Assembly: GCA_903928965.1 (NCBI GenBank)
Contig: CAIYSZ010000010.1
Span: forward strand, 1-46,729
Source: an uncultured Pseudomonadota bacterium
GTDB taxonomy: Bacteria; Pseudomonadota; Gammaproteobacteria; Methylococcales; Methylomonadaceae
Direction: 5' to 3'
Length of the DNA stretch: 46,729 nt
In this document: positions 5,635-39,849 of the stretch, one piece after another
How positions within the stretch are numbered: position 1 is the stretch's first letter
Layout of the letters: each line of letters opens with the position of its first letter
Program-made: the position numbers and the translations under genes
The notes under the pieces: model-generated
The model's input: the letters and a program-made list of their open reading frames with translations, nothing else
What the model was told of the DNA's origin: nothing
Databases searched by the model: none

Positions 5635-5672
5635 TCAACGCCTAGGCGTTTGGGGTTTTGGGAGTAAAGGTT

Positions 5673-5942: not shown

Positions 5943-5975
5943 GCCGATTGGGTTTTATTGAGTTTTGGAGGGGTT

Positions 5976-6233: not shown

Positions 6234-6450
6234 GCGGGGCGGATGTTATGTAGTATTTTCAAGCCGCCAAGGGTTGTCTTAAAAATGATGTCCGTTTGTC
6301 GCGGGCTTGGTTGATAGGCTTTAAGGGGGGAAGGGCCTTATTTGGCCGCTGGAAACGGCGATCTTTTTTGGCGATTGCCTTGGGGTGCGGTCATGACGCT
6401 ACAAGGATGTATTCAGGGCAATCACCAAAGAAATTTAAGTGGAGGCGCGG

Positions 6451-6687: not shown

Positions 6688-6689
6688 AT

Positions 6690-6995: not shown

Positions 6996-7074
6996 GTTTG
7001 GCTGTTGGTGTCTGGTGGCTAAGATTTTAAAAGCGTGTAGGGGGCTGGCTAGCTGAGAAACAAGAGGGGGCATT

Positions 7075-7176
7075 GTGGAGAAATTGGTGGATTGGGCGCG
7101 GCGGAAGAAGAAGCGGGAGTTCTTGGCGATGAGTCCGGCTGAGGTTGGTAAAAAATTTATGAGGTGTAGGAAGTGA
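7075..7176 (+). CDS. 33-residue basic peptide coupled to tail gene
   Basis: A GTG at 7075, preceded by GAGGGGG (6-bp spacing), opens a 33-codon frame. Its TGA overlaps the GTG start of the tail protein as GTGA (7173-7176). The peptide is basic (a run of arginines and lysines around residues 9-14). Such a coupled mini-frame may serve mainly to deliver ribosomes to the tail gene, or be a true small phage protein. It is supported by the SD and overlap only. Confidence 0.45.
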   Translation: MEKLVDWARRKKKREFLAMSPAEVGKKFMRCRK

Positions 7177-8939: not shown

Positions 8940-8942
8940 GCC

Positions 8943-9644: not shown

Positions 9645-9652
9645 GGGTTGAT

Positions 9653-9922
9653 ATGTATACGCAAATTTCAAGAGAAAATTTAATTAAAAAAAACGCTCAA
9701 CGGCGGCCCATAGCGGGTGATCGGCATTTTATTTTAGCTGATCCTGAAAAGCCGGACGAATGGGCTTTGCCGGGGACTTGCCAAGTAGTGGGTACGTTAA
9801 ACGGCGTTAGGTTGTTTAGCAGGCCGAAAACCATTTCTACCGATAACTTGAAGGCCTGGGCTAAGCAAACTAATCGGCGCTTTATGATTATGGATGATTG
9901 TTCTTTGGTGAGAACAGAATAA
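9653..9922 (+). CDS. Small phage protein, unknown
   Basis: The 89-residue protein (ATG 9653) is charged, without membrane segments, with an alpha/beta look (HFILADPEKPDEWALPGTC, GVRLFSRPK). It is AT-richer than the flanking virion genes and is followed by terminator-like hairpins, so it and the next three genes look like an accessory island inserted in the late operon. No family is recognised. Confidence 0.5.
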   Translation: MYTQISRENLIKKNAQRRPIAGDRHFILADPEKPDEWALPGTCQVVGTLNGVRLFSRPKTISTDNLKAWAKQTNRRFMIMDDCSLVRTE

Positions 9923-9928
9923 ACATTT

Positions 9929-9992
9929 ACGGCTAAGCCGGTTTTTTGTTTTTTTGCAAAGCGGCGGGGCTGGTTGGCCAGCCGCTTTTTTT
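9929..9992 (+). terminator. Two tandem terminator-like hairpins
   Basis: CGGC-TAA-GCCG followed by six T (about 9930-9946) is a weak terminator. A stronger one is GGGCTGG-TTGG-CCAGCC within 9961-9983, followed by seven T. Together they would stop transcription in the middle of the virion operon. The tail nozzle and internal virion genes downstream would then need read-through, antitermination or another promoter. Confidence 0.65.
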
Positions 9993-10016
9993 GTGATTTT
10001 TAGTGGAGAGTAAAAC

Positions 10017-10430
10017 ATGACAAGTTTGTTGGAAAAAATTTTAGATATTCCGCGCCGAGTGGAGCCGCTTGGCGGTCAAAATTACACCTATGTCCGTCTT
10101 GAAGAGGTGATAACTTTGGCTGCTGAATACAATGCAAAACAAAACATTCGTTTTACTAAAGGCGGTTTAGATGTGGCCGCCGAACGTCAGCGGCAAATGG
10201 ATGTGAAAAATTTCGCGCCGGAACGGGATGATGCTTATGTGCGCGGAGAATTATTTAAAGCGGCTTTGTTTTTTATTACAGGCAATTATTTAGATTGGCC
10301 GTGGAGTATGGAGTCTCTTATGGCTGTAAAAAACAAAAAATATGATCGAAGGGCGTGCCTGGTTCGGGCCGCGGCGTTATTGGTAGCGGAGATTGATCGT
10401 CTTGATCGTATGGCTGCTACAAAAGACTAA
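10017..10430 (+). CDS. Phage accessory protein, AERQRQ/PERDD family
   Basis: The 137-residue protein contains VAAERQRQMDVKNFAPERDDAYVRGEL, a motif I recognise from many uncharacterised proteobacterial phage proteins (usually written as ..ERQRQ..GW.PEHDD..). These occur among early or accessory genes and have no established function. The rest is helical (LFKAALFFITGNYL, ACLVRAAALLVAEIDRLDR). ATG 10017 follows GGAGAGTAAAAC. It belongs to the island between the two tail tubular genes. Confidence 0.55.
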   Translation: MTSLLEKILDIPRRVEPLGGQNYTYVRLEEVITLAAEYNAKQNIRFTKGGLDVAAERQRQMDVKNFAPERDDAYVRGELFKAALFFITGNYLDWPWSMESLMAVKNKKYDRRACLVRAAALLVAEIDRLDRMAATKD

Positions 10431-10570
10431 AAAACATTAAGGTTAGTAGTTTTGTGTGATGCGCCGCGCGTTGCTTGGCGGCATCCTACGTTATTTTGTT
10501 TTTGTCGGTGAAACAATACGGCGGCCACGCTGCCGGGAAGCGGTTTTATTTTGAAACAATGGGGTAATTT

Positions 10571-10888
10571 ATGACGTTTAATGAAACCACAGAGCAGGCT
10601 AATACTTTAACTAAACATTGCAATCAATATTTCACAGCTATACCGGAGAATGGACAATGGAAAGTTTCTTGTTGTTTTGATCCTTTTTACATTTCGCGTA
10701 AAGAAGCGTGGCCGGAATATCTAGCCGTTCATGATCCTTTTTATCCTGCGAATAAAAAAAAGTGGGAGGAATATTTAGCCTCTAAACAGCCGGAGTGGGA
10801 TGAAAATCAAATTACTATTGCTTTGTTTGAATTACAACTTAACCAACAACAAGGCAAAACTAAAGAAGGGGTGGTTTATGACGTTTGA
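10571..10888 (+). CDS. Small phage protein, paralogue 1 with internal repeat
   Basis: The 105-residue acidic-aromatic protein is paralogous to the next gene. The first 43 residues of each (starting MTF, then EQAN/KQAN, an ENGQW block and a Y-I-x-R-K ending) are about 65% identical by eye. Relative to its neighbour it has an extra copy of a short unit: DPFY...W.EYLA occurs twice (around residues 37-51 and 54-69). No function is known. The start at 10571 has GGGGTAA upstream. Confidence 0.55.
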   Translation: MTFNETTEQANTLTKHCNQYFTAIPENGQWKVSCCFDPFYISRKEAWPEYLAVHDPFYPANKKKWEEYLASKQPEWDENQITIALFELQLNQQQGKTKEGVVYDV

Positions 10889-11087
10889 TGAAGCCACAAA
10901 GCAGGCTAATGCTTTGAGTAAGCAATGTAAACAATATTACACTGCCGTACGGGAAAATGGGCAATGGACTGTTTCTCGCCGCTTTAATCCTTCTTACATT
11001 GCGCGTAAAAAAGAGTGGGAGGAATATTTAGCCTTTAAAGATCAAGAGTGGCAGGAATATCAAACTACTATTGATTTGCAGGCTTAA
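10878..11087 (+). CDS. Small phage protein, paralogue 2
   Basis: The 69-residue protein starts at ATG 10878 inside the end of paralogue 1 (11-base overlap), behind GGGGTGG. A longer frame from 10800 is only the overlapping reading of paralogue 1. The nucleotide sequence is still visibly similar to the first copy, so the tandem duplication is fairly recent. Aromatic and charged residues dominate (KEWEEYLAFKDQEWQEYQ). Function is unknown. The tail nozzle gene follows directly. Confidence 0.55.
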   Translation: MTFDEATKQANALSKQCKQYYTAVRENGQWTVSRRFNPSYIARKKEWEEYLAFKDQEWQEYQTTIDLQA

Positions 11088-11089
11088 CC

Positions 11090-14000
11090 ATGGCCAATGT
11101 GCGCACTTTAAAGCAGACGTTTAATGGCGGGGAGATTACGCCGGGGTTGTTTGGGAATGTGGATCAGGCGAAGGTTCAGTCCGGGTTGGCGTTGTGCCGG
11201 AATTTTTTGCCGTTGCCGCATGGTCCGGCGCAGAATCGGGCGGGGTTTGCGTTTGTGAATTCGACGCGGATTAACGCGCCGACGCGGTTGATTCCGTTTT
11301 CGTTTAGTAGTGCGCAGACGTTTGCGGTGGAGTTGGGGGCGGGGTATTTTCGGTTTCATAGCGCGGGGGAGACGTTGCAGGTGACGGCTTTTCCGGGTTT
11401 GTTGTTGAATGATACGTTTGCGTCGGGGGATTTGACGGATTGGTCGAAGTTGAGCGGGACGTGTACGTTTAGCGGCGGTCAGTTGCTGTTGTCGGCGGGG
11501 GCTTCGGTTTGTCAGGCGGTGGCGACGACGCCGGGGCAGCGGTATTCGGTGGGGGCGCAGTCGGATAGTGTGGCGAATACGGGGGCGCTGACGATTCGGG
11601 TGGGTTCTTCCGCCGGCGGTTCGGATGTGTTTAGTAATGGCGCCTTGGGCGGGCTGCCGTTTTCTAATGGTCAGAATAATTCGGCGTATGTGAATTATTT
11701 TACGGCGACCGGGACGACGTCTTATGTGACGATTTTGAACGGCGGTTCGAGCTCTCAGTTGTTGTTGGCGACGGATTGCCGGGTGTTTGATCAACAAACG
11801 CCGGTAGGGTGGTTTTCGGTGGTGTCGTATTTGGCGGGGACGCTGGTTTGCGATGCTTCGTTGAATGTGTATGTGGCGGTGCAGGCGGTTCCGGCGGGGA
11901 CGGCGTTGACGAATACGGGGTATTGGATGGCGTTGGGGGCTTCGCCTACGCCGTATACGGTGTTAAATCCTTATGCGGCGGGTGATTTGTTTGCGGTTCA
12001 TTATGTGCAGTCGGGGGATATTATTACGTTGACGCATGCTAATTATGCGCCGTTGCAGTTGGAGCGGTGGGGGCCTTTGTTGTGGCAGTTGGCGGGGATT
12101 AGTTTTGCGAGTAGTTTGGGCGCGCCGATTAGCGTTTCGGCGACGCGCACGGAGAGCGCCGGCAGCGCGACGCCGTTATATCGGACGCCTTTGGGTTATG
12201 TGGTGACTTCGGTTGATCAGTATGGCTTGGAGGAGAGTTTGCCTTCCGCGGCGGTGAGCGTGAATGCTGATTTAACGATTGCGGGGGATTATGTGACGGT
12301 GGCTTGGAGCGCGCCGGCGAGCGGGCCGGCGCCGGCTTTTTATAATGTGTATAAGTCGATTGGCGGCGGGGCGTTTGGGTATGCGGGGCAGGTGGCGGCT
12401 TCCGCTTCTATGAGTTTGGTGGATAGGAATATTACGCCGGATTGGACGCAGACGCCGCCGTTGAGTGATTCCGCTTTGTCGAGCGCGGGGAATTATCCGG
12501 CGGCGGTGGGCTATTATGAACAGCGGCGGGTGTTCGCGGGGACGAATAATCAGCCGCAGAATGTGTGGGCGACGCAGCCGGGGACGGAGAGTAATTTGAG
12601 TTATTCGGTGCCGAGTCAGGATAGTGACGCTTTGCGGTTGCGGATTGCGGCGTTGAAGGCGAATGCGATTGAGCATGTGGTGACGTTGTGGGATTTGTTG
12701 TTGTTGACGGCGTCGACGGTGTGGCGGGTGTATTCGTCTAATGGGGATGCGTTGACGCCGTCGACGGTGACGATTAAGGCGCAGTCGCAGGTGGGGGCGA
12801 ATAGCGTGCAGCCGGTGGTGGTGAATCAGGCGGCGTTGTATGCGGCGAGTCAGGGCGGGCATGTTCGGGAGTTGTCGTATCAGTGGCAGTTGCAGGGGTA
12901 TCAGGATCGGGATTTGTGTCTTTTGGCGCGGCATTTGTTTGATGGCTTGTCGGTTGTGGATTTGGCGTTTAGCCGGTCTTTGTATCCGGTGGCGTGGGCG
13001 GCGTCGAGTTCGGGTGCGTTGTTGGCGTTGATGTATATTCCGGAGCAGGAGGTGGTGGCGTGGAGCCAACATACGACGTTTGGGTTCGGGTCTTTTGAGT
13101 CGGTGTGTGTGGTGCAGGAGGGGAATTTCGATGTGTTGTATGCGGTGGTGAACCGGATTTTGAACGGGGTGCAAAATCGTACCATTGAGCGTTTGGATAC
13201 GCGGCAGTTCGGGGCGAATGTGAGTGATGCGTTTTTTGTGGATAGCGGGGTGACGCAGACGTTTGAAACGCCGCAGACGATAGTCAGCGGTTTGTCTTGG
13301 CTGGCGGGGGCGACCGGCGGGGTTTTAAGTTATTGGCAGTTTTTGACTTCGGCGGCGGGCTGGGTTACGTATAGCGATGCGGCGAATCCTTTGAATATGA
13401 GCGCGGGGTTTACGGGTTGGGTGGCCCCTGGCCAGAACGGCGCGCCGCCGCTGTATGGGGCGTTTAGGATTTCGTTTACCGGGACGGCGGACGGGGTGTT
13501 TCGGTCGAGCGTGTATGGGTTGCCGCAGGCGGTGGCTTGTTCGCCGGGCGAGGTATTGGAGGCGCAGTGTTATGCCTTGGCTTATCGGGGCGGGGCTCAG
13601 TTGTATGTGTCGTTTTATAACGCTAGCGGGTTTGTGAGTTCGGTAGTGGTGTCTGGCGGGGTGAGTACGTTGAATGATTCGCCGGTGTGGCCGCCGTCTA
13701 GTCTGGCGGATTTTGGGCATTTGTGGGGGTTTGTGACCGCGCCGGCGGGGGTGACGTTGGCGTATGTGGAGCTGAAGGGGTGTTTGAACGCGGGGCAGTC
13801 GGAGGCGGATGTGTATTTGGCGTTGCCGTTTTTGCGGGTGGCGAGCGCGGGACAATCGACGCCGAGCGCGTGGCCGGCGGCGGGGATGTTGTCGGCGCTG
13901 TTGGATGGGAAGCCTTACACGGGTTTGCAAATCGATCAGTCCGGAGCGGTGGCGTTGCCGGTGGCGGCTAGTACGGTGACGTTGGGTTTGCCGATCAGCG

Positions 14001-14317
14001 CGGAGATTAGAACGCCGCCGGTGGCTTTGGGCGGTGATGGGAGTTTGGGCCAAGGGCGGGTAAAAAACGTGAATAAGATTTGGGCGCGGGTGGAGGAGTT
14101 TTGCGGTTGTCAGGCGGGGCCTGATGATGCGCACTTAGTGAATGTGCCGGCGCAAGCTTATCAAAGCGATGGGGTGACGCCTGTGCCGTGGTCGGGTGAG
14201 TGGCGGGTGAATTTGTTGCCGGGCTTCGGGCCGGATGGTCAGGTGTCGGTGGTGCAAAATTTGCCGTTACCGATTACGGTGTGTGATTTGAGTTTGGAGG
14301 TGTCGGTTGGAGGGTGA
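11090..14317 (+). CDS. Tail tubular protein B-like / tail nozzle
   Basis: The 1075-residue protein opens with a TFNGGEITPGLFGNVDQAK stretch, then LALCRNFLPLPHGPAQNRAGFAFV, the conserved N-terminus of podovirus tail nozzle (tubular B/stabilisation) proteins. It also has the family's RRVFAGTNNQPQNVWATQPG block near residue 480, LRIAALKANAIEHVVTLWDLLLLTA near 520 and a beta-propeller-like middle. Insertions near 110-200 and 730-920 look like carbohydrate-binding or jelly-roll domains (two similar blocks beginning NDTFASGDLTDW and containing GWVAPGQNGAPP), making it longer than the T7 protein. It forms the distal tail tube. Extremely GC-rich codons produce long antisense open frames, which I discount. 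Confidence 0.82.
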   Translation: MANVRTLKQTFNGGEITPGLFGNVDQAKVQSGLALCRNFLPLPHGPAQNRAGFAFVNSTRINAPTRLIPFSFSSAQTFAVELGAGYFRFHSAGETLQVTAFPGLLLNDTFASGDLTDWSKLSGTCTFSGGQLLLSAGASVCQAVATTPGQRYSVGAQSDSVANTGALTIRVGSSAGGSDVFSNGALGGLPFSNGQNNSAYVNYFTATGTTSYVTILNGGSSSQLLLATDCRVFDQQTPVGWFSVVSYLAGTLVCDASLNVYVAVQAVPAGTALTNTGYWMALGASPTPYTVLNPYAAGDLFAVHYVQSGDIITLTHANYAPLQLERWGPLLWQLAGISFASSLGAPISVSATRTESAGSATPLYRTPLGYVVTSVDQYGLEESLPSAAVSVNADLTIAGDYVTVAWSAPASGPAPAFYNVYKSIGGGAFGYAGQVAASASMSLVDRNITPDWTQTPPLSDSALSSAGNYPAAVGYYEQRRVFAGTNNQPQNVWATQPGTESNLSYSVPSQDSDALRLRIAALKANAIEHVVTLWDLLLLTASTVWRVYSSNGDALTPSTVTIKAQSQVGANSVQPVVVNQAALYAASQGGHVRELSYQWQLQGYQDRDLCLLARHLFDGLSVVDLAFSRSLYPVAWAASSSGALLALMYIPEQEVVAWSQHTTFGFGSFESVCVVQEGNFDVLYAVVNRILNGVQNRTIERLDTRQFGANVSDAFFVDSGVTQTFETPQTIVSGLSWLAGATGGVLSYWQFLTSAAGWVTYSDAANPLNMSAGFTGWVAPGQNGAPPLYGAFRISFTGTADGVFRSSVYGLPQAVACSPGEVLEAQCYALAYRGGAQLYVSFYNASGFVSSVVVSGGVSTLNDSPVWPPSSLADFGHLWGFVTAPAGVTLAYVELKGCLNAGQSEADVYLALPFLRVASAGQSTPSAWPAAGMLSALLDGKPYTGLQIDQSGAVALPVAASTVTLGLPISAEIRTPPVALGGDGSLGQGRVKNVNKIWARVEEFCGCQAGPDDAHLVNVPAQAYQSDGVTPVPWSGEWRVNLLPGFGPDGQVSVVQNLPLPITVCDLSLEVSVGG

Positions 14318-14789
14318 GATAAGCGCTAGGCAAGTTAGTGGGCGTGCTATCCTTGAGTTGGCGCGCGGTCTGCGGGAGTTGGATAGGCAGGAGTTGCAAG
14401 CGGTGTGCGATTTGCCGCCGTTGCAGGCGGTGCGGGCCAGTGTGTTGGCCAGCGATGTTCGCTTTTTACGCGCCTGGTACGCGGGGGAGACGTTGTTGGC
14501 GATCGGCGGTTGTTCGCCGGGGGCGGAAGCGGGCGCGGCCGCGCCGTGGTTGCTGGGCACGGAGGCCTTGGATGCTTATTTGTATACGTTGACGCGCACG
14601 GCGCGGGCGTGGCTAAGATTGATGGCGGCGGAGTATCCGCGTTTAAGTAATGTGATAGACGCACGGCAGGCGCGGACGGTGCGATGGCTGCAAGGTTTGG
14701 GTTTCAAGTTTTATTTCGAGCCGCCTAGGAAGGCGGGTTATGCCTTATGGCGTTTTGTTTGGGAGGCCGAGGATGTGCGACGGATTTAG
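14307..14789 (+). CDS. gp13-like internal virion protein A (DUF2833, GNAT-like)
   Basis: The 160-residue protein starts at TTG 14307, overlapping the nozzle gene by 11 bases, with GGAGG six bases upstream. The layout (VRFLRAWYAGETLLAIGGCSPG, then APWLLGTEALD, then LSNVIDARQARTVRWLQGLGFKFYFEP) is that of the T7 gp13/DUF2833 family, which has a GNAT-like fold (N-terminal sensing of environment or virion assembly). The C-terminal LxxLGF pattern is typical of acetyltransferase-like folds. Enzymatic activity is not implied. Confidence 0.75.
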   Translation: MEGEISARQVSGRAILELARGLRELDRQELQAVCDLPPLQAVRASVLASDVRFLRAWYAGETLLAIGGCSPGAEAGAAAPWLLGTEALDAYLYTLTRTARAWLRLMAAEYPRLSNVIDARQARTVRWLQGLGFKFYFEPPRKAGYALWRFVWEAEDVRRI

Positions 14790-15432
14790 CGAGGCGTTTG
14801 CGGCGGCGGCCGCCGGGGCGAGCGAGGGTGTGGGGGCGCTGGCGGGCGGTTATACGACCTTGGCCGGGGTGGGCGAGGCGTTGGGTAGCGCGGCGGCGGG
14901 GGTTGGAGAGTACGGCGGGGCCTTGGCCAGCGTCGGCGGCGCGGGCATGTCGGCTTATTCGGCTTACGCGCAGACCAATGCGCAGAGCCAGGCGGCGGCG
15001 TATCAGGCGCAGGTAGCTAGGCAAAACGCGGTGCTGGCCGGCTATCAGCAGAGCGCGGCCGTGCAACAAGGGCAGTTGCAGGCTAGGCAGGCTATGTTGC
15101 AGCAGCAGCAAACCTTTTCCGCGCAACGGGCGGCGTTGGCGGCGAACGGGGTGGCGCTGGATTCCGGGTCGGCGTTAGACCAGTTGGCGACCACGCGTTA
15201 TTTGGGAGCGCAGGATGTTAACGCCTTGCAGAGTAACGCGGCGCGGGCGGCCTGGGGTTATGCCGTGGATGCCGGCAATTATACGTCGCAGGCGGGCTTG
15301 AACGCTTGGCAGGCGGCGAATGCCAGTCCGGCCGGCATGGCGGGACTGGCCGGCGCTTCGTCTCTTTTGGGCTCGGCTTCATTGTATGCCATGGGGCGGC
15401 GGACTAATTTGTTCAATGCCTTGGTGGATTGA
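14773..15432 (+). CDS. Internal virion protein B-like (gp14-like)
   Basis: The product is about 219 residues, starting at ATG 14773, which has GGGAGG upstream and overlaps the previous gene by 17 bases. It has a hydrophobic glycine/alanine-rich N-terminus (about residues 10-70, possibly membrane-inserting on ejection), then a long Q/A-rich helix (AQTNAQSQAAAYQAQVARQNAVLAG near 70-95) and the motif RAALAANGVALDSGSALDQLATTRYLGAQDV, commonly seen in podovirus internal virion proteins. It would be ejected with DNA to form the channel across the cell envelope. Confidence 0.7.
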   Translation: MCDGFSEAFAAAAAGASEGVGALAGGYTTLAGVGEALGSAAAGVGEYGGALASVGGAGMSAYSAYAQTNAQSQAAAYQAQVARQNAVLAGYQQSAAVQQGQLQARQAMLQQQQTFSAQRAALAANGVALDSGSALDQLATTRYLGAQDVNALQSNAARAAWGYAVDAGNYTSQAGLNAWQAANASPAGMAGLAGASSLLGSASLYAMGRRTNLFNALVD

Positions 15433-15443
15433 GAGGATAGTCT

Positions 15444-17531
15444 ATGCAAGTTCCCGATTATCAGCGACAGGCGGATTGGGCCGATTTGCCGCCGGCGCGG
15501 CGGCAGATTGAGGCGAACGCCGATGATTTTATGTCGGCCGATCAGGCCGGGTTGGCGCAATACGGGGGGGAAGCGGCGCAGCGCCTGGATCATGCCGCCG
15601 CCGAGTTATATTCGCAGCAGTTGCAGGAGGCTAACGCGGCGCGGGTGGCTGATGCACGCAATGCAACGCAGGCGCGGGTGAACGATTTGCTGTATGGCGA
15701 GCAAGGCGTGTTGCGGCGGCAAGGGGCGGCCGCGTTCGAGCCTGACGCGGACGGCAAGCCGGCTTCGGCGGGCGTATTGGAGGCGGTGGATGCTCATGTG
15801 TCGGAAACGGCGGCCGGTTTGGGTAATGAGGCTCAACGGCGGGAATATGCGTTGTGGGCCGAGCAGTTGAAGCAGCAAACCGCGGGTTTGTTGCGCCAGC
15901 ACGAGGGACAACAGTTCCGGGTCTACCGGCGCGGGGTGGCGCAAGCGGCGTTGGCGGTGCAAAAACAAACCATGGGCTTGAATTACAATAATATGGATTT
16001 GCTGGAGCAGGGCGCGGACGCCATGCGTCAGGCCGGGGTGGATTTGGCGAGGTTGGAGGGCGCGCCGGACGGGTTGGGCGCGGCCGAGGGTGACCGGGCG
16101 GCCAGCGAGGGCTTGCATGCGGCTTTGTCGTTGGCCTCGCAACAAGGCGATGCTGACAGCGTGTCGGAAATACTACAGCGTTTCGGCGCTCGCTTGGCTC
16201 CGGAGCATGTTTTGGATGGCCGCCGGCAGTTGGCGGAGTTGCGGGCGGACCGCGCCGCCGGTGCGGTGGCGAATCAGGTGATGGCGGAATTGGAGCCTAG
16301 GTTTCAGACTGGAGATTTTGCCCGTATGCGCGGCTTGGCCTTGGCGGATGCCGAGGCCAAGCCGGAGCGCTTGGCGGAGCATGGCGCTCAAGCCGCGGCG
16401 GAGGCGGGTCAGGTTTGGGACCGTTCTTTGTTCTTGGGGCGCGGACCTGAGGCGGCGGAGTATCGGCGGCGGTTGACGGATGCTTATTTACAGCGGCAAT
16501 TGCGCGATTTTAACGGCGAGCCGGAGCAGGCTTGGGCGGCTTTCGCGGCGGGGCCGGATGCGGTGCGGGAGGCCTTAGGCCGCGCGGAGGCGGCTGGAGG
16601 CGGTGATTGGTTGGCTTATTTGCCGGCCGGAACCCAAGCTTATGTGCGGGGGCGGATGCAGGGTTTGATTGCCGGGGAGGGCGGCGGGCGGCCGGGCATG
16701 GCGGAGGCGGAGACGCTGGCTTTGGCGCGTTTAGCGCCGAACGCGGACGCTACCTTGCGCGGGCGGGTGTTGGCGGAGGTGCAACGGCGGTTCAGCGTGC
16801 GTTTGCAACAGCGGAATCAAGAGATGCAGAGGCAACGCGCGGCGGCGGTGGGTTTGCTGTTGGACAACGGCGGCGATTTTAGCGCCTTGCCGCCGGCGTT
16901 GCGTAATACTTTGCCGGCACGGCAAAGACGGAATTTGCTGGATTTCGGCCAGCGCTTGGCGCGCGGCGAAGCGGCGGCCACGGATTGGGGTTTGTATTAC
17001 CGTTTGCAGGCGGACGAGGCTTTTTTGGGGCGCAGTTATTTGCCGGCGTTTAAGGATAGGTTGAGCGAGGCGGATTATAGGCAAATCAGCGCCTTGCAGG
17101 CGTCGTTGCGGCAAGGGGATACGCCGGACGCACGGCCGGAGCGGGATGTGTTGTTCCGTTATTTGCGCGCGGCGGGGATTAATCCGCATCCGGCAGCGGA
17201 GGATACGGAAGGAACGCAGGCGATGGGCCGGATTTGGTCGGCGTACGCGCAGCGCTTGGCGGCGGCGCGGCGCGACAGCGGCAAGCCGCTGAGCGAGGGG
17301 CAAGTCGAACAAGTGGCGGCGCGTTTGTTTGCCATGGTCGGGGTGCGCCGGGGTTGGTTCGGCGCGAGCGAGAAGCCGGCGGTGCTGGTGGATAGCCGCA
17401 AGGATACGGTGGTAGTGCCGCCGCGCGACCGGGCGCAAATCATTGAAGCGTTGCAGGCCATGCAGCCGGGGCGGTCGGTAACGGAGGATCAGGTGTTCGA
17501 CCAATATATGCGGTATAAGGGCTTTTGGTAG
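15444..17531 (+). CDS. Large internal virion / ejection protein
   Basis: The 695-residue highly helical protein is rich in A, Q, R and E (e.g. AELYSQQLQEANAARVADARNATQARV near 53-78). Long amphipathic segments and its place after the gp14-like gene fit gp15-like ejection proteins. No lysozyme or transglycosylase motif is visible, unlike T7 gp16, and no further large ejection protein follows. ATG 15444 follows GAGGATAG. It is the last phage gene; a terminator lies 50 bp after the stop and the host gene ald begins 125 bp after it. Confidence 0.65.
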   Translation: MQVPDYQRQADWADLPPARRQIEANADDFMSADQAGLAQYGGEAAQRLDHAAAELYSQQLQEANAARVADARNATQARVNDLLYGEQGVLRRQGAAAFEPDADGKPASAGVLEAVDAHVSETAAGLGNEAQRREYALWAEQLKQQTAGLLRQHEGQQFRVYRRGVAQAALAVQKQTMGLNYNNMDLLEQGADAMRQAGVDLARLEGAPDGLGAAEGDRAASEGLHAALSLASQQGDADSVSEILQRFGARLAPEHVLDGRRQLAELRADRAAGAVANQVMAELEPRFQTGDFARMRGLALADAEAKPERLAEHGAQAAAEAGQVWDRSLFLGRGPEAAEYRRRLTDAYLQRQLRDFNGEPEQAWAAFAAGPDAVREALGRAEAAGGGDWLAYLPAGTQAYVRGRMQGLIAGEGGGRPGMAEAETLALARLAPNADATLRGRVLAEVQRRFSVRLQQRNQEMQRQRAAAVGLLLDNGGDFSALPPALRNTLPARQRRNLLDFGQRLARGEAAATDWGLYYRLQADEAFLGRSYLPAFKDRLSEADYRQISALQASLRQGDTPDARPERDVLFRYLRAAGINPHPAAEDTEGTQAMGRIWSAYAQRLAAARRDSGKPLSEGQVEQVAARLFAMVGVRRGWFGASEKPAVLVDSRKDTVVVPPRDRAQIIEALQAMQPGRSVTEDQVFDQYMRYKGFW

Positions 17532-31812: not shown

Positions 31813-34098
31813 ATGCTCAGCAAAGAACTTGAAAACACATTGAACAAGGCTTTTGCCTTGGCGCATAGCCAGAGGCATGAGTTTATCACCGTGGAGCACA
31901 TCCTATTAAGTTTGCTGGACGATGCCGACACCGTACCTATTTTGATTGCTTGCGCTTGTAACGTGAACGCCTTGCGCGCCGAGTTGAAGGAGTTTATTAC
32001 CGCGACGGTGCCGCGGATTCCGAAGGAATCGCCGCGGGATACGCAGCCGACCTTGGGTTTTCAGCGCGTGTTGCAGCGCGCCGTGTTTCATGTGCAGGCT
32101 TCCGAGAAACAGGAAGTCACCGGCGCTAATTTGTTCGTGGCCTTGTTCAGCGAGCAGGAGTCGCATGCGGTGTATTTGTTGTACAAACAAGAAATAACCC
32201 GCTTGGATGTGGTTAATTATCTGGCGCATGGGGTGTCTAAGATTGAGAAGCAACCGAATAAGGCCGCTCTCGGCGCTGAACCGGAGCAGGAAAAAAGCAA
32301 TGCCGCCGAAGCCCAGTCCAATCCGTTGCAGCGTTACGCCACCAACTTGAATGCCGAGGCGCTGAAGGGCAATATTGATCCCTTGATCGGCCGGGAGTCG
32401 GAAGTGGAGCGCTTGATTCAGGTCTTGTGCCGCCGGCGTAAAAACAATCCTTTGTTGGTCGGCGAGGCCGGCGTGGGTAAAACCGCGATCGTGGAGGGCT
32501 TGGCCAAGCGCATCGTGGATAAGGACGCCCCTGGGGTATTGTTGAGCAGCGTTATTTATTCCCTGGATATGGGCGCTTTGGTGGCGGGCACCAAATACCG
32601 CGGCGATTTTGAAAAACGGTTAAAAGAGCTGGTGGCGCAATTAAAGAAAGAGCCGCATAGTATTCTGTTTATCGACGAGATTCACACCATAATCGGCGCG
32701 GGTTCCGCTTCCGGCGGCGTGATGGACGCCTCTAATTTAATCAAGCCGGTGCTGGCCTCCGGCCAGTTGCGTTGCATAGGCTCCACGACTTATCAAGAAT
32801 ACCGGGGCATTTTCGAGAAGGATCACGCGCTGGCGCGGCGGTTTCAGAAAATCGACATTACCGAGCCGAGCATAGAAGACACGGTGCAAATTTTGCGCGG
32901 TTTGCGTTCGCGGTTTGAGGAGCATCATGAATTGCATTACACCACCGATGCCTTGCAAACGGCGGTGGAGTTGTCGGTGCGCTATATCACCGACCGGCAT
33001 TTGCCGGACAAGGCCATCGATGTGATAGACGAGGCCGGCGCGCGGCAGCGTTTGTTCGCGGAAAGCGAGCGCAAGACGATTATCGACATCGCCGACATTG
33101 AGGAAATCGTCGCCAAGATGGCGCGGGTGCCGGCGCAAACCGTTTCCGAAAACGACATCGACAAGCTGTCGAATTTGGAGAAAAATTTGAAAATGCTGGT
33201 GTTCGGACAAGACGAGGCCATCGGCGAGTTGGCCACCGCGATTAAATTGTCCCGCGCCGGATTGCGCGACAGCAGCAAAACCATAGGCGCGTTTTTGTTC
33301 GCGGGGCCTACCGGCGTCGGCAAGACCGAGGTCACCCGGCAATTGGCCAAGGTGTTGGGCATTGAGTTGATTCGTTTCGACATGTCTGAATATATGGAGC
33401 GGCATACGGTGTCGCGCCTGATAGGCGCGCCGCCGGGCTATATCGGCTATGACCAGGGCGGTTTATTGACCGACGCGGTGACCAAGCATCCGCATTCGGT
33501 ATTGTTGCTGGACGAATTAGAGAAAGCGCATCCCGACGTGTTTAATTTGTTGCTGCAAGTGATGGATCACGGCGTGTTGACCGACAATAACGGCCGCAAA
33601 GCCGATTTCCGTAACGTTATTTTAGTCATGACGACTAACGCGGGCGCGGAAGAGGGGGCGCGGGCTTCCATCGGATTTACCCACCAGAATCACGCGACTG
33701 ACAGCATGAAGGTGATCGAGCGGTCGTTTTCGCCGGAGTTCCGTAACCGGTTGGACGCCATTGTGCAGTTCAAGCCTTTGGATATGTCGGTCGTTGGTTT
33801 TGTGGTGGATAAATTTATTTTTGAGCTGGAAGCCTTGTTAGAGGATAAAAACGTGACCTTGACTTTGGAGCCGGAGGCGCGCGCATGGTTGGCGCGGCAC
33901 GGTTACGATGCGCGCATGGGCGCGCGGCCTATGGCGAGATTGATTCAGGACAAGCTGAAAAAGCCTTTGGCGGAGGAATTGTTGTTTGGCCGCTTGGTGG
34001 AAGGCGGCAGGGTGCGGGTGTTCGTAAAAGGCGAGGACTTGGAGTTCGCCATAGACGGCAAGCGTTTGGTGGCAACTTCGCTGTCGCGGACGGTATAG
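31813..34098 (+). CDS. clpA: ATP-dependent Clp protease ATP-binding subunit ClpA
   Basis: AAA+ unfoldase that feeds ClpP. It has 761 residues: double Clp_N domain (1-150), first AAA module with Walker A GEAGVGKT and Walker B ILFIDEIH, second module with GPTGVGKT (about 497-504), [13 protein letters not shown] and arginine finger SPEFRNRLD, and a C-terminal D2-small domain. The IGF/L-type loop needed to bind ClpP is seen as ASIGFTHQN near 624. clpP itself is not in the window. Confidence 0.96.
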
Positions 34099-34113
34099 AG
34101 CGCTTAAGCGCTC
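34098..34113. terminator. Palindrome between clpA and infA
   Basis: GAGCGCTTAAGCGCTC is a perfect 16-bp palindrome at the end of clpA (its first base is the last base of the stop codon), between convergent genes. No T-run follows, so it is at best a weak bidirectional terminator or mRNA-end hairpin. Confidence 0.35.
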
Positions 34114-34129
34114 GCCCGCTGTTTCAAGA

Positions 34130-34348
34130 TTAACGATTACGGAAGGTGATGCGGCCTTTGGTCAGATCGTAGGGCGTCATTTCCACCCTGACTTTGTCGC
34201 CGGTAAGTATGCGAATGTAGTGTTTACGCATTTTGCCGGAGATGTGCGCGGTGACGATGTGTCCGTTTTCCAATTCGACGCGAAACATAGTGTTCGGCAG
34301 GGTGTCGATGACCTTGCCGTCCATTTCAATTTGATCTTCTTTTGACAT
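34130..34348 (-). CDS. infA: Translation initiation factor IF-1
   Basis: The 72-residue S1/OB-fold protein ([66 protein letters not shown]) binds the ribosomal A site during initiation. The clpS-clpA-infA neighbourhood is typical of gammaproteobacteria. Confidence 0.98.
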
Positions 34349-34461
34349 ATAATTTCTTAAGTAGCTAGATTCCCCATTTTAACATGCTTTAGGGCTTGCC
34401 GGCGGCAATGCCTAGAAATTTTGTCGTTCTTGTTTAATTAAAAACGCCTTTCTTGACGATT

Positions 34462-34737
34462 CTATGGGTTTCCCGTTGCCGGAGCCTGCTGCGCCGCGTG
34501 ACGCAATTGCGTGATGCGCGCGCCTATGCCTTCAGGTTGAAACCAACCTAAGGCGAGCGCGATGAAGATAAAAATAAACAACAGCAGGGAAAGGCCGATG
34601 CGAACGGCCAGCGATTTGAAGATTTTCTCTGATGCGGCTTGATCTTGATTTTTATTGGTTACCAATAAGCGAAGTGCATTGACCAGACTGGCGACGATGA
34701 CCAGGAATGTTGCGATGGCGAGGACTTTGATTAACAT
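34462..34737 (-). CDS. DUF2909 twin-transmembrane protein
   Basis: The 91-residue protein has two hydrophobic helices (about 5-25 and 47-67) flanking a charged loop, with the KVLAIATFLVIVASLVNALRLLV and RIGLSLLLFIFIFIALALGWF segments of the DUF2909 family. Genes of this family lie beside SURF1 in cytochrome oxidase clusters. Here it is divergent from SURF1, 74 bp apart. The function is unknown, probably in terminal oxidase assembly. Confidence 0.8.
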   Translation of the reverse strand: MLIKVLAIATFLVIVASLVNALRLLVTNKNQDQAASEKIFKSLAVRIGLSLLLFIFIFIALALGWFQPEGIGARITQLRHAAQQAPATGNP

Positions 34738-34811
34738 AATGCGGTCTAAACAAATTAAAATGGCATTTTCGGTTATCCTGCGCGGCTTGCCAATAGTCTA
34801 GGGCGTTAAAT

Positions 34812-35564
34812 ATGCGATTTGAATTCGGGTTTTTGGGTCAACGTTATGCTTGTTCGTTGTGGCTGCTTATAGCTTATTGTTGTTTAACTGTTTTATTATG
34901 CGGGCTGGGTTTTTGGCAGCTGGAGCGGGCCGGGCTGAAGGCGGAGTTTCTGGCGCGGCGGCAGGCGGCGCTGGAGACGCAGGACGTAGTGGATTTGAAC
35001 CGGGAGGAAGCGGCCGACGTTCGCGAGTTGCGTTATCATCTTGCCAAGGCAACCGGCCATTATGACGCCGAGCATCAGTTTTTGTTGGATAATCGGATGC
35101 TGGATGGCCAGCCGGGTTATGATGTATTGACCCCATTCAAATTGTCCAATGGTCAGGCGATTCTGGTTAACCGCGGCTGGTTGCCGCTCGGCGCGGACCG
35201 CCGCGTGTTGCCGGATGTGAGGTTGGAGCAGGCTATTGATCAGGTTAGGGGGCGCATCAACCGTTTCCCCGAAGTGGGTTGGAAACTGGCCGGCATGGAG
35301 AAACCGGGCGCGGGTTGGCCGGCGTTGTTGCAGTTGGCGGAACCTAAGGCCTTGTCAGAGCATTTGGGTTACCCGGTTTACGATTTTCAATTGGAGTTGG
35401 CCCCGGAAATGGCGGGCGGTTATCGCCGGGAATGGCGGCAGCCGGAAGTGATGCCGCCCGAGCGGCATATCGGCTACGCCGTGCAATGGTTCGGTTTGGC
35501 GGCTACGCTAAGCGTTTTGTTTATTTTGAAAGCGATAAAAAAAATGGGTGACCGATCGGAATAG
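34812..35564 (+). CDS. SURF1 family cytochrome oxidase assembly protein
   Basis: SURF1 helps insert heme a into the oxidase subunit I. The 250-residue protein has the classical layout: an N-terminal TM (about 15-35, GFWQLERAGLKAEFLARRQ following), periplasmic loop with GYDVLTPFKLSNGQAILVNRGWLP near 97-120 and a C-terminal TM ending HIGYAVQWFGLAATLSVLFIL. No cytochrome oxidase structural genes are beside it, unlike in Pseudomonas, so it may be an orphan or serve an oxidase elsewhere. Confidence 0.9.
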   Translation: MRFEFGFLGQRYACSLWLLIAYCCLTVLLCGLGFWQLERAGLKAEFLARRQAALETQDVVDLNREEAADVRELRYHLAKATGHYDAEHQFLLDNRMLDGQPGYDVLTPFKLSNGQAILVNRGWLPLGADRRVLPDVRLEQAIDQVRGRINRFPEVGWKLAGMEKPGAGWPALLQLAEPKALSEHLGYPVYDFQLELAPEMAGGYRREWRQPEVMPPERHIGYAVQWFGLAATLSVLFILKAIKKMGDRSE

Positions 35565-35622
35565 TACCCATGGGCAGCCGTTGGTCTGTTATTTTTCGGC
35601 AATAGAGTTATTTTTTGTAACG

Positions 35623-36210
35623 ATGTATAGATTAAGTAAAAATCGATTAATGATTATCGGCATTTTCGCTATGAGCGTAGCGCCGTTCTCCTTGGCTTGG
35701 TTCTTGGCCGAGCATCCGGAGTATGTGCGTCTGGGTTCCAGTAATGGCGATTTAATCAAGCCGCCGGTGACGACGGAGTTGCGCGAGTTCACCGGCATAG
35801 ACGCCTTTAGCGCGGATAATCTGCGCGAATTGTCCGGACATTGGGTGTTGTTGACCGTGGGCGGAGAGGATTGCGGACCGGTGTGCCTGGAGAGCTTGTA
35901 TAAAGCGCGGCAACTGTCGCTGATGTTCGGCAAGGACGTGCCTAGGATACGCCGCGGATTGTTGTTGACGCCTGCCGCGCGGGCGGATTTGCCGCCGGAG
36001 TGGGCGGACGACGGCAGGCTGTTGAAGTTGCGGGCGGATGCGAAATTGCTGGACCGGGTGCGCGCCGCCGGCGGCAAGGAATCGGAAGCGGGCGCGATGC
36101 TGTTGATGGATCCGTTGGGCAATATCATGATGCGTTATGCGGCGGGGTATGATCCATACCGGGTTAGAAACGATTTAACCAAATTATTAAAAATTTCACA
36201 AATCGGTTAA
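35623..36210 (+). CDS. Membrane-anchored thioredoxin-fold-like protein of oxidase-assembly cluster
   Basis: The product is about 195 residues from ATG 35623 (a GTG 75 bases earlier overlaps SURF1 and lacks a better SD). One N-terminal TM (about 8-27) is followed by a soluble part with SGHWVLLTVGGEDCGPVCLESLYKARQL: a C-x3-C arrangement in the position where SCO proteins have CxxxC, and LLMDPLGNIMMRYAAGYDP, typical for SCO/thioredoxin-like proteins. Uncharacterised genes of this type sit between SURF1 and ctaA in Pseudomonas. A copper or disulfide role in oxidase assembly is inferred. Confidence 0.65.
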   Translation: MYRLSKNRLMIIGIFAMSVAPFSLAWFLAEHPEYVRLGSSNGDLIKPPVTTELREFTGIDAFSADNLRELSGHWVLLTVGGEDCGPVCLESLYKARQLSLMFGKDVPRIRRGLLLTPAARADLPPEWADDGRLLKLRADAKLLDRVRAAGGKESEAGAMLLMDPLGNIMMRYAAGYDPYRVRNDLTKLLKISQIG

Positions 36211-36215
36211 TTACG

Positions 36216-38195
36216 ATGTTTAAAAAATTATGTTGGCTGGCTAGCGCCCTGGCGCTGGCGTCGCTATTGCTGGGCAGTTATTCTCGTTTACGGGAGGCCG
36301 GGTTCGGTTGCGATGATTGGCCGGTCTGCTACGGGCAGTTGGGGAAAAGCGCGGACATTGCGGCTGGCGGGGCGGACGGTGTAGAGGTTTGGACCGCGCG
36401 GGCGGCGGATGCGGCGCGGGGCCTGTTGTTATTGACCGCGGCTTTGCTGTCGCCGGCGGTGCGATTTTCGCGAGACCCGGTATTGGGCGGCGGCGCGCGG
36501 CGCGGCTGGGGGGTGGCGGTGGCCGGTTTGGCGGTCGCGGCGGCGCAAAACGGTTTCTTTTGGTGGCCGGCGGTGTGGAAAAACATGCCGTTGGCGCAAA
36601 CCGCGCAAATCGGTTTGGACTGGCTGGCGGTTTGGGTCTTTGTTTGGCTGGCCTGGCGCGGCTTGCGGCCGCGCCGTTTGCCGGCTCCGGTTGGGCCGCA
36701 AGTTTGGGCGCTGGCGGCGATGCTGGTCTTGGGCTTGCAGATGTGGTTGGGCGCTTGGGTAAGCGTGGATTTCGCTTCCTTGGCCTGCGGCGAGTTTCCG
36801 CGTTGCGCCGGCGCTTGGCTGCCGGCGGCTGATTTCGCCGGTTGGCTGGGCAGCCTAGGGGCGGCCGATGCGTCGGTGATACCCGATGCGGTGAAGGTGG
36901 CGGCGCATTGGTTGCATCGTATCGGCGCGGCGCTGGTTTTTGTGGTGTGCACGGGTTTGATGTTGCGCGCGACTGACGAGGAAAATCCCAAGCCGATGCG
37001 GGCGGCCGGGGTGATTTTAAGCGGTTTGCTTTTGGTTCAGATTGGCTTGGGCATTTTCGCGGTCAAGCATGTGTTGCCATTCTGGGCGGTATTGTTGCAC
37101 CATGCCTGGGCGGCGGTGTTGATGACCCCAGTCTTGGCGATTTATTTTTATGGCCGTTATGCGCTGGCCGGCGCGGTCGAGGCGGAACCCGTCGCGGAGC
37201 CGCCGCTAGGGGCGGAGCCGGCCGCAGCGCCGGAGCCTGTAGAGCCGGTGGAGTCGTTAGAGCCGGCGGAAGCCAATTTAATGTCTCGCCTGAAAGCGCA
37301 ATTGAGCCGCACCCGCGGCAGCATGCGGGCGGTGTTGGCTAATTTGCAATTTGGGCAGGACCGCGGCGTCAAGGAATTGCTGGATGAGGTGGAAGCCAGT
37401 TTGATTATGGCGGATGTGGGCATGGAAACCACCACGCGCATTATCGAGCAATTGACGGCGGGTTTAAGTCAGGAGCAGTTGCGCGACGGCGCGGCGTTGA
37501 CCGGTGAACTTAAACAGTTGCTGCGCGCCATGCTGTTGCCGTGCAGCCAGCCGTTGCGGATTCCCGCCGAGCGCGACGGCCCGTTCGTGATTTTAGTGGT
37601 CGGCGTCAACGGGGCCGGCAAGACGACGACTATAGGTAAGATGGCGCACCGATTGAAGGGCCAAGGTTATAGCGTGATGCTGGCGGCGGGAGATACCTTC
37701 CGCGCCGCGGCGGTGGAGCAATTGCAAACCTGGGGCGAGCGTAACCAGGTTCCGGTGGTGGCGCAAGCCACTGGCGCGGATTCGGCGTCGGTTATTTTCG
37801 ACGCTTTGCAATCGGCGCGGGCTAAGGAAGTGGATGTGTTGATCGCCGACACCGCCGGCCGTTTGCATACTAAATCGAATTTGATGGACGAACTGAAAAA
37901 AATCAAACGCATTATCGGTAAGTTGGATGCATCCGCGCCGCACGAGGTGTTGCTGGTATTGGACGCCGGCACCGGACAAAACGCGTTGTCGCAAGCGCGC
38001 TTGTTTAATGAAGCGGTTAATTTAACCGGTATTGCCTTGACCAAGCTGGATGGCACCGCCAAGGGCGGGGTGATTTTTGGGTTGGCGAATCAATTGCAAT
38101 TGCCGATTCGGTTTATCGGGGTGGGGGAATCCGCGGCGGATTTGCAGGATTTCGACGCGGAAACGTTTGTCGAGGCCTTGTTCGACGCTGATTAA
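36216..38195 (+). CDS. Fusion: degenerate heme A synthase (CtaA) + SRP receptor FtsY
   Basis: One 659-codon frame. Residues 1-315 are a CtaA/COX15 membrane domain with about eight helices (GSYSRLREAGFGCDDWPVCYG 20-40; LGAWVSVDFASLACGEFPRCAG 178-199; AAHWLHRIGA 229-238; LLHHAWAA 293-300). Residues 320-355 are an E/P/A-rich linker. Residues 357-659 are the FtsY NG domain: GVNGAGKTTT (463-472), DTFRAAAVEQL (493-503), DTAGR (545-549), TKLDGTAKGG (609-618). FtsY receives SRP-ribosome complexes at the membrane. In the CtaA half the C-terminal heme ligands His234 and His295 remain, but the N-terminal pair is gone (Gln131 in place of one; the other replaced in the ARAADAARG segment), and the catalytic-Glu loop is shortened. 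It is followed by ftsE and ftsX as usual for ftsY. An internal ATG (codon 356, nt 37281, with GGAAG upstream) might also yield soluble FtsY. Confidence 0.9.
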   Translation: MFKKLCWLASALALASLLLGSYSRLREAGFGCDDWPVCYGQLGKSADIAAGGADGVEVWTARAADAARGLLLLTAALLSPAVRFSRDPVLGGGARRGWGVAVAGLAVAAAQNGFFWWPAVWKNMPLAQTAQIGLDWLAVWVFVWLAWRGLRPRRLPAPVGPQVWALAAMLVLGLQMWLGAWVSVDFASLACGEFPRCAGAWLPAADFAGWLGSLGAADASVIPDAVKVAAHWLHRIGAALVFVVCTGLMLRATDEENPKPMRAAGVILSGLLLVQIGLGIFAVKHVLPFWAVLLHHAWAAVLMTPVLAIYFYGRYALAGAVEAEPVAEPPLGAEPAAAPEPVEPVESLEPAEANLMSRLKAQLSRTRGSMRAVLANLQFGQDRGVKELLDEVEASLIMADVGMETTTRIIEQLTAGLSQEQLRDGAALTGELKQLLRAMLLPCSQPLRIPAERDGPFVILVVGVNGAGKTTTIGKMAHRLKGQGYSVMLAAGDTFRAAAVEQLQTWGERNQVPVVAQATGADSASVIFDALQSARAKEVDVLIADTAGRLHTKSNLMDELKKIKRIIGKLDASAPHEVLLVLDAGTGQNALSQARLFNEAVNLTGIALTKLDGTAKGGVIFGLANQLQLPIRFIGVGESAADLQDFDAETFVEALFDAD

Positions 38196-38213: not shown

Positions 38214-38885
38214 ATGTTGAAACTGGAAGGCGTGTCTAAACGTTACCCCGAGGCCGGCGAGGTGTTGAGCGACGTCGGCTTTCATCTGGCGCGCGGGGAA
38301 ATGGCTTTTTTAACCGGGCGCTCTGGGGCCGGCAAAAGCACGTTGCTAAAGTTAATCGCCATGATGGAGTGGTGCAGCCGCGGCAAGATTTTTTTTGACG
38401 GCCAAAACATCAGCCGGGTCGGCGAGTGGCGGATTCCATTTTTGCGGCGGAAACTGGGGCTGATTTTTCAAGACTATAAATTGTTGAACGACCGCACGGT
38501 GTTCGATAATGTGGCGCTGCCGTTGATTGTCAGCGGCGTTAACCATCAGGAAGTGCCGCGGCGGGTGCGGGCGGCCTTGGATAAAGTGGGTTTGCTCGGC
38601 AAGGAGAAAAAATATCCGTTGGCGTTGTCGGGCGGGGAGCAGCAGCGGGTCGGCATTGCCCGCGCCATCGTCAACAAGCCGAGCTTGATTCTGGCGGATG
38701 AGCCGACCGGTAATCTGGACCCGGATTTGTCGGCGGAGATCATGGCCATGTTCGCCGAGTTTACGCAGGTGGGCGTTAGTTTGTTGATTGCTACCCATGA
38801 TATTGAGTTGATCAATAGTTTGCATTACCGGGTGCTGGTTTTGCACCGGGGGCGTTTGCTTGAGGCTGGGGACGGCGATGATTAA
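38214..38885 (+). CDS. ftsE: Cell division ATP-binding protein FtsE
   Basis: ABC ATPase of the FtsEX complex that controls peptidoglycan amidases at the septum. It has 223 residues: Walker A GRSGAGKSTL (37-46), signature LSGGEQQRVGIARAI (about 138-152), Walker B LILADEPTGNLD, and switch histidine in ATHD. It begins 18 bp after the ftsY stop. The standard ftsY-ftsE-ftsX order is preserved despite the fusion. Confidence 0.95.
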   Translation: MLKLEGVSKRYPEAGEVLSDVGFHLARGEMAFLTGRSGAGKSTLLKLIAMMEWCSRGKIFFDGQNISRVGEWRIPFLRRKLGLIFQDYKLLNDRTVFDNVALPLIVSGVNHQEVPRRVRAALDKVGLLGKEKKYPLALSGGEQQRVGIARAIVNKPSLILADEPTGNLDPDLSAEIMAMFAEFTQVGVSLLIATHDIELINSLHYRVLVLHRGRLLEAGDGDD

Positions 38886-39849
38886 GCCGGCCCGCAAAGG
38901 CCGCGCTCCGTTTTGGCGGCGAATGCAAGACCGTGGCCACGCTTATTTACTGAATCATGCGCATAGTTTGTTTTCCAGTCTTGGGCGTTTGAGCCGCAGT
39001 CCGTTTAATACATCCATGACGATTTTGGTGCTGTCTACCATTGTCGCCATGGCCGGCGGATTTTATATCGCCGTGGCGAATTTGCAGTTATTAACCGGCA
39101 ATTTGAAAGGGACGAATCAGATTTCTCTGTTTTTGCAGGAATCGGTCAGCGAAAACGCCGCCCTTAAATTGGCGGAGCAATTGCGCCGGCGCGAGGATAT
39201 GCAGGATGTCAAATTGATCACCAAAAAGCAGGCGTTCGAGGAGTTTAAGCAGCATAGCGGTTTTGCCGATGCTCTGAAAATTCTGGATTTCAATCCCTTG
39301 CCGCACGTTTTGCAATTGACGCCCAAATCGCAAACTGACAGCGCGGAGCAGGCGAACGCCTTGACCGCCGAGTTCAGGCAATGGCCGCAAGTTTATTTTG
39401 TGCAAGTGGATATGCAATGGATTGCGCGTTTGCAGGCGATCATGCAATTGGTGGACTCCGGCGTGAAAATGGCCGCCGGTTTGTTGGCGCTGGCGGTGAC
39501 GTTTATCGCCGGTAACACCATACGCCTGGAATTGCAAAACCGGCAGGACGAGGTGTATATTTCCAAACTGGTGGGGGCGACGCAGGCTTTTATTCAGCGC
39601 CCGTTTTTATACGCGGGTTTTTGGCTGGGTTTTATCAGCGGCTTATTTGGCTGGTTTATCATTACCGTGGAATTATACTTGCTGCAAGGTCCGGTGGAGC
39701 GCTTGGCCAGTTTATACGAGGGCGGGTTTGGCCTGCGCTTTATGAATTTTCGGGAATTTCTGGGTTTGTTGCTGGCGTCCACTACCGCGTCTTTGGTGGG
39801 GGCTTGGCTGGTGTTGAATTATCAGTTAAGGCAGTTGAAGCCGCAGTGA
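38878..39849 (+). CDS. ftsX: Cell division protein FtsX
   Basis: Membrane partner of FtsE. I place the start at ATG 38878 (MIKPARKGR), overlapping the ftsE stop by 8 bases; an ATG 18 bases upstream is less likely. The protein has about 323 residues: a cytoplasmic N-terminus, TM near 50-70, periplasmic ECL1 domain (FLQESVSENAALKLAEQLRRREDMQDVKLITKKQAFEEF), and three C-terminal TMs with NRQDEVYISKLVGAT, the FtsX permease motif. Confidence 0.93.
   Translation: MIKPARKGRAPFWRRMQDRGHAYLLNHAHSLFSSLGRLSRSPFNTSMTILVLSTIVAMAGGFYIAVANLQLLTGNLKGTNQISLFLQESVSENAALKLAEQLRRREDMQDVKLITKKQAFEEFKQHSGFADALKILDFNPLPHVLQLTPKSQTDSAEQANALTAEFRQWPQVYFVQVDMQWIARLQAIMQLVDSGVKMAAGLLALAVTFIAGNTIRLELQNRQDEVYISKLVGATQAFIQRPFLYAGFWLGFISGLFGWFIITVELYLLQGPVERLASLYEGGFGLRFMNFREFLGLLLASTTASLVGAWLVLNYQLRQLKPQ

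Follow-up and report, generated by a model that had tools for sequence, protein, structure and literature searches.

The window, a stretch of 46,729 nucleotides (positions 1 to 46,729 of contig CAIYSZ010000010.1) from an uncultured bacterium of the family Methylomonadaceae in the order Methylococcales, carries on its forward strand at 36216-38195 a gene that we call ctaA::ftsY, one open frame of 659 codons from an ATG. Its product matches Pfam COX15-CtaA at 100.8 bits (cut-off 29.9), placing it in the CtaA/COX15 family, and also Pfam SRP54 at 257.6 bits and NCBIfam ftsY (TIGR00064) at 357.9 bits (cut-off 260.7), a score that qualifies it as FtsY, the receptor of the signal recognition particle (SRP). 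That a CtaA/COX15 domain and a complete FtsY share one frame had been proposed from the sequence alone, and both profiles indeed fall on one protein. Between 37000 and 37399 the gene's own frame contains no stop, and the other two contain 10 and 2. The G+C content at third positions lies between 0.65 and 0.82 throughout the gene, with no break at the junction.

The CtaA/COX15 membrane domain spans residues 1-314 (36216-37157, forward strand). Eight transmembrane helices are predicted in it (residues 2-25, 54-78, 93-121, 125-148, 162-184, 224-252, 259-284, and 289-314), in agreement with the original prediction of about eight, and the structure predicted for this half on its own has the eight-helix, two-bundle fold. 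With the full-length model, Foldseek and VIA returned only FtsY or other SRP-GTPase chains among the matches listed. Next comes the E/P/A-rich linker, also foreseen, which is acidic and predicted to be disordered (residues 315-354; 37158-37277, forward; predicted local distance difference test below 50 over residues 325-371; a net charge of -8 counted over 42 residues). It is followed by the alphaN1 helix of FtsY (residues 355-376; 37278-37343, forward), which binds lipid in Escherichia coli, and by the NG GTPase (residues 383-655; 37362-38180, forward). The latter has the NG fold and carries GVNGAGKTTT, DTFRAAA, DTAGR, and TKLDG, every motif, as far as sequence can tell, of a working receptor.

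The genome to which the window belongs comprises 3.25 Mb in 116 contigs and is 91.9% complete. The fused gene, adjoining ftsE-ftsX, is its single match above the ftsY cut-off, so that the search for a second ftsY recommended with the original prediction brought up no other such match in this assembly. One further match, of 224 bits and thus below the cut-off, lies in a frame of 452 aa and was judged from its size and score to be Ffh-like. A second, stand-alone CtaA is encoded on contig C116 at 12780-13673 (4709-5725 of locus L006). It has Asn at position 60 and lacks the second cysteine pair.

Distribution and origin of the fusion

The fusion is a trait of most of the Methylococcales and not an oddity of one genome. 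The names Methylococcales, for the order, and Methylomonas, for the window's genus, are those carried by the matches in our surveys. A search with protein P0001 over 61 genomes recovered the fused frame in 54, the window's included: all 37 genomes of the window's genus (in G017 the gene is cut by the contig start) and 17 of the 24 other members of the order. The recurrence of the same kind of frame in so many genomes excludes a local sequencing artefact in practice, and an assembly or frame artefact was ruled out on this ground. The seven genomes without the fusion are all of family f7 or f8, with FtsY alone (only a fragment in G049) and CtaA alone. Among 311 genomes of the order about 260 are fused, mostly judged by score. 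In 257 of them the best match has an E value below 1e-160, which FtsY alone would hardly reach: the highest FtsY-only scores were 434 bits in the class survey, 438 bits in G043, and 453 bits (E 1.5e-135), the last reached by a piece in G609. Three more (G034, G046, and G441) were called fused from their frames, and every match among the 150 best-listed of this search spans both domains. None of the 20 f7 and f8 genomes is fused (G434 gave no FtsY match and G049 the fragment). The remaining 31 genomes were counted in neither group. Scores were intermediate in 13 of them; in the other 18 the draft has pieces at contig ends, a broken frame, or nothing of FtsY at all. G609, G525, G578, and G478 have their FtsY piece at the end of a contig. 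Fission within the order was considered for G468 (L171) and G599 (L168), where the frames are broken and the ctaA-ftsY order is kept, and we judged draft errors to be likelier. The broken gene of G468 also lacks part of NG.

When 5.8 billion proteins were searched with the CtaA half of a relative, the best 120 of 6430 matches were all two-domain proteins, named as FtsY of Methylomonas, Methylomarinum, and similar sources. The source names thus say FtsY only and hide the CtaA half. Named genome contigs extend the fusion to Methylobacter, Methylomicrobium, Methylovulum, and a mussel methanotroph symbiont. Among the matches listed for 369 genomes of the class, full-length ones occurred only in G308, G039, and the window's genome (G000), all of this order, with frames of up to 993 aa elsewhere lying outside this check. 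Among those listed for 398 genomes of the phylum, only G000 gave a full-length match, long FtsY frames elsewhere again lying outside the check. The original prediction had proposed counting the genomes that share the gene, and the count shows that it is not special to this one.

In unfused genomes of f7 and f8 (G056, G059, and G043), a cluster formed by SURF1, a gene for a PA0111-like redox disulfide protein (PA0111), ctaA, and cyoE converges on ftsY-ftsE-ftsX on the opposite strand. An rpoH-like gene separates the two clusters, and ctaA and ftsY lie 4.6-8.8 kb apart (cyoE and the sigma factor gene were checked in G056 and G043 and assigned by likeness in G059). A DUF2909 gene accompanies the first cluster in G056 and G059. 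In fused genomes SURF1, PA0111, ctaA::ftsY, ftsE, and ftsX are mostly co-directional: ftsE directly follows the fused gene in 53 of 59 distinct loci, and among the 54 loci with room upstream 52 have PA0111 and 51 have SURF1 on the strand of the fused gene. In G040 (L180) no ftsX was seen beside ftsE, and the next gene is, by likeness, exonuclease-like. A CyoE gene is present elsewhere in the window's genome.

In a tree of 82 NG domains, obtained by a quick search without bootstrap and with some long branches, the 69 fused rows lie on one side of a branch with a Shimodaira-Hasegawa-like approximate likelihood ratio support of 96 and require one change, which argues for one origin. The fusion would thus probably have arisen once, in an ancestor shared by most of the order, through a rearrangement that put ftsYEX right behind SURF1-PA0111-ctaA and let the frames join; an inversion in which cyoE also disappeared from the site would give the fused arrangement. 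The original prediction had suspected a merger of two operons, and their closeness is seen in two unfused families. The rearrangement step itself we infer.

Lost and kept residues of the CtaA half

Residues of the heme sites are numbered here as in Bacillus subtilis CtaA through an alignment to 6a2j, the chain of which counts six higher (the offset is our own reading). The first cysteine pair, C32 and C38 (36309-36329, forward), is kept in the window. At the place of E57 and H60, where relatives have WKEMxHR, residues 61-64 (36396-36407, forward) present Ala, and Ala or a deletion, respectively; at the place of H123 stands Gln131 (36606-36608, forward). The substrate-site residues of a heme A synthase are therefore missing. 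Conversely, the second cysteine pair, C191 and C197 (36786-36806, forward), and both ligands of the cofactor heme b are kept, H216 as His234 (36915-36917, forward) and H278 as His295 (37098-37100, forward). With the counterparts of E57, H60, and H123 gone, the window's CtaA half is probably no heme A synthase, a conclusion that goes beyond the original prediction.

We compared 167 distinct fused proteins, those nearest one Methylomonas protein, a set that for this reason leans to intact proteins. C191, C197, H216, and H278 are kept in all 167, E57 in 141, H60 in 154, and H123 in 154; all five heme-site residues (E57, H60, H123, H216, and H278) are present in 136. In the tree, H60, H123, or both are absent from 14 of the 69 fused rows, which needs at least eight changes. 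Of the conserved cells of these rows, 377 of 714 are kept in the N bundle and 408 of 518 in the C bundle; leaving aside the two columns by which the group was defined, the N-bundle count is 375 of 686. For the window, the counts of conserved columns kept are 24 of 51 (N bundle) and 32 of 37 (C bundle), and five unfused CtaAs of f7 and f8 show the reverse balance (46-47 of 51 and 27-29 of 37). Eleven of the 89 columns conserved in intact fused proteins are kept in all 14 rows, namely, in the numbering of P0006, Met1, the four cysteines, Gly185, Pro201, Pro209, His239-Arg240, and His300. In a comparison of 46 CtaA halves, among them one unfused CtaA and the stand-alone copy, Gly179, His234, Arg235, and His295 of the window are invariant. 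In genus g12, the fused CtaA has Arg at H60 and, in the three rows compared, Gln at H123. There, with 15 pairs from six genomes pooled, the N bundle has a ratio of nonsynonymous to synonymous substitution rates (dN/dS) of 0.186, the C bundle one of 0.109, and NG one of 0.041. These values, well below 1, indicate that a fused half remains under selection for some role even when its substrate site is not intact.

Gene content points to the source of heme A in some relatives. The 11 stand-alone second CtaA copies examined (those of ten relatives and the window's) all have Asn at position 60, a substitution that the available text of PMC8239418 lists for a CtaA type. G007 and G046 combine a fused copy lacking H60 and H123 with CtaD and a second CtaA carrying Asn60, which probably makes heme A there. 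In G040 the fused CtaA is the only CtaA match and has the five residues intact; with two CtaD matches in this genome, the fused copy is probably the enzyme. CtaD was matched in 59 of the 61 genomes, the exceptions being G000 and G003, and G003 is not counted as lacking the oxidase because the cox operon of that genome runs off the end of its contig. In the 92%-complete assembly of the window's genome, the search for heme-copper oxidase subunit I gave no match, a strong match to cytochrome bd is present, and this lineage has likely lost the heme-copper oxidase.

The CtaA half as a probable anchor of FtsY

FtsY is essential and near-universal, and its contact with the membrane has long been debated; the fusion would amount to a natural tethering experiment across most of an order. 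For the window we put at about 0.72 the probability that the sole FtsY found is fused behind a CtaA domain that likely no longer makes heme A, and is held in the membrane by the eight predicted helices. Our best reading of these sequences is that an enzyme was captured as the permanent, probably heme b-holding, anchor of the sole SRP receptor and was kept after the death of the enzyme. The C-terminus of the CtaA fold is expected in the cytoplasm, and NG would hang there on the flexible acidic linker, which would replace the A domain, with the lipid-binding alphaN1 helix retained. Both halves look competent in most relatives. In several lineages, that of the window among them, the N bundle, which would hold the substrate heme, has lost its residues for that site; selection seems to have continued on the C bundle, including both histidines for heme b, and on the cysteine pairs of the loops. 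According to the available text of PMC7327177, heme B is located in the C bundle and the substrate heme in the N bundle of the B. subtilis enzyme, and the C bundles form the trimer core in that of Aquifex aeolicus. The C bundle, heme b site and trimer core in known heme A synthases, would be what carries the essential FtsY: FtsY stands directly behind it, the parts kept are those that would hold an anchor together, and the part lost is the substrate site.

In known systems, the first contact of FtsY with the membrane is made by the N-terminal helix of the A domain and stable binding by alphaN1, as described in the accessible part of PMC5533587. The CtaA anchor would stand in for this first contact, alphaN1 being kept. 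In E. coli, FtsY works when it is tethered permanently, and FtsY of Gram-positive bacteria and archaea may have a true membrane helix (PMC2780400, available text, citing Zelazny 1997 for the former). A permanently anchored receptor would make a soluble FtsY stage dispensable. The repeated losses of the substrate site with a fixed cofactor site look like those of an enzyme turned structural anchor, and they imply that the two roles could be separated by simple mutants. More tentatively, the sole SRP receptor of most Methylococcales might be a b-type cytochrome, in which heme b staples, and perhaps trimerises, the anchor, the enzyme being now a pure heme-holding anchor in lineages like that of the window. 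If so, the capacity for membrane-protein insertion would depend on heme supply or redox state.

The window's protein resembles FtsY of the E. coli type, composed of an A domain and NG, in its NG with alphaN1 (61-64% identical to E. coli chains over ~270 aligned residues) and in the ftsE and ftsX that follow its gene. It differs in having a whole eight-helix enzyme domain and a short acidic linker instead of the A domain. A built-in N-terminal membrane anchor also characterizes the integral-membrane FtsY of Actinobacteria (Streptomyces lividans; Bibi 2001, as cited in the available text of PMC6022935). There it is a short hydrophobic N-terminal segment, which the window's protein does not have; its anchor is a polytopic CtaA bearing a heme site, in a Gram-negative order. 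The closest engineered counterpart is the E. coli construct, functional in that host according to the text available, in which NG is tethered by an integral membrane protein. Unlike this laboratory construct, the fusion, known here from sequence, is natural and clade-wide, and its anchor is an enzyme. Compared with the heme A synthases of B. subtilis (6a2j) and A. aeolicus (8aw5), the window's domain is without the residues for the substrate heme and continues at its C-terminus into FtsY. Natural CtaA fusions have been described with CtaB (PMC8239418 and PMC9145763, available text); the partner there is an enzyme of the heme A pathway and not, as here, a protein-targeting receptor. FtsY goes unmentioned in the main text of these two papers, and literature searches of titles and the starts of abstracts, mostly outside subscription papers, gave no description of a CtaA-FtsY fusion among the papers listed.

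Could the two halves nevertheless part, by proteolysis in the linker or by initiation at the internal ATG, leaving FtsY a normal peripheral protein and reducing the join to co-expression? E. coli FtsY is cleaved near the A/N junction, the linker is predicted to be disordered, and the ATG (37281-37283, forward) exists with GGAAG upstream, as the original prediction had pointed out. The soluble form that it derived from this codon does not hold up across relatives: a Met lies at most six residues before the helix in 1 of 134 fused proteins with the motif (167 looked at), and no second high-scoring FtsY appears in fused genomes among the matches listed. We regard this separation as unlikely. That the window's protein is bifunctional, with an active heme A synthase joined to the SRP receptor and supplying heme A where SRP delivers oxidase subunits, is an idea that fits many relatives, given the frequency of intact heme sites and the gene content of G040. 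In the window, however, three of the five residues are gone, a stand-alone CtaA is present, and oxidase subunit I was not found in the genome, which makes it quite improbable there. The CtaA half might also be ballast, a decaying pseudo-domain kept since an upstream stop would kill ftsY. The eroded N bundle of the window fits this view, but its well-preserved C bundle, the universally kept histidines and C191-C197 pair, and the low dN/dS in one genus of CtaA halves without H60 render it very improbable.

Several observations weigh against the capture of a dead enzyme as anchor. At ~92% completeness, a second ftsY or an oxidase operon could lie in the missing part of the genome. Asn at position 60 in all stand-alone copies means that losing one ligand alone is no proof of lost activity, and in G050, an 85%-complete draft, the fused copy lacks H60 and H123 and a second CtaA was not found. 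Seventeen fused proteins that differ at E57 alone are also poorer in the N bundle (535 of 867 cells kept, vs 480 of 629 in the C bundle), so that the shift to the C bundle may partly be general divergence. The window's lineage has no close relative for dN/dS and the selection figures come from another genus, g12, in which the N bundle is likewise under purifying selection. The NG tree comes from a quick search and has long terminal branches, among them that of the window (0.3). Finally, ctaD of G019 sits on a different contig from the fused gene. In that genome (L176), sdhCDAB-like genes and not a cox operon lie upstream of SURF1, so the fused cluster and the oxidase operon need not stay together.

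Neighbouring genes

Downstream of the fused gene, ftsE (38214-38885; TIGR02673, 279.6 bits) and ftsX (38860-39849, listed start uncertain; TIGR00439, 310.5 bits) both score over their cut-offs and lie on the forward strand. The gene before ctaA::ftsY, at 35548-36210 on the same strand (listed start uncertain), encodes the PA0111-like redox disulfide protein; its match to NF058629 (54.5 bits) is below the cut-off of 230, and the gene has the same place in relatives. Further upstream are SURF1 (34812-35564, forward; PF02104, 147.6 bits), a gene on the reverse strand for a DUF2909 twin-helix protein (34462-34737; PF11137), found in the cox cluster of relatives, and clpA (31813-34098, forward; TIGR02639, 1092 bits). 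In several relatives the position of clpA is taken by the cytochrome oxidase operon coxB-coxA-ctaG-coxC. SURF1 and DUF2909 thus persist within 31813-35564 though the genome search gave no heme-copper oxidase subunit I. At the other end of the window, 2413-17531 contains phage structural genes with PHROG matches (protease, major head protein, tail proteins, internal virion protein, and endolysin) next to host genes, and this run is probably part of a prophage.
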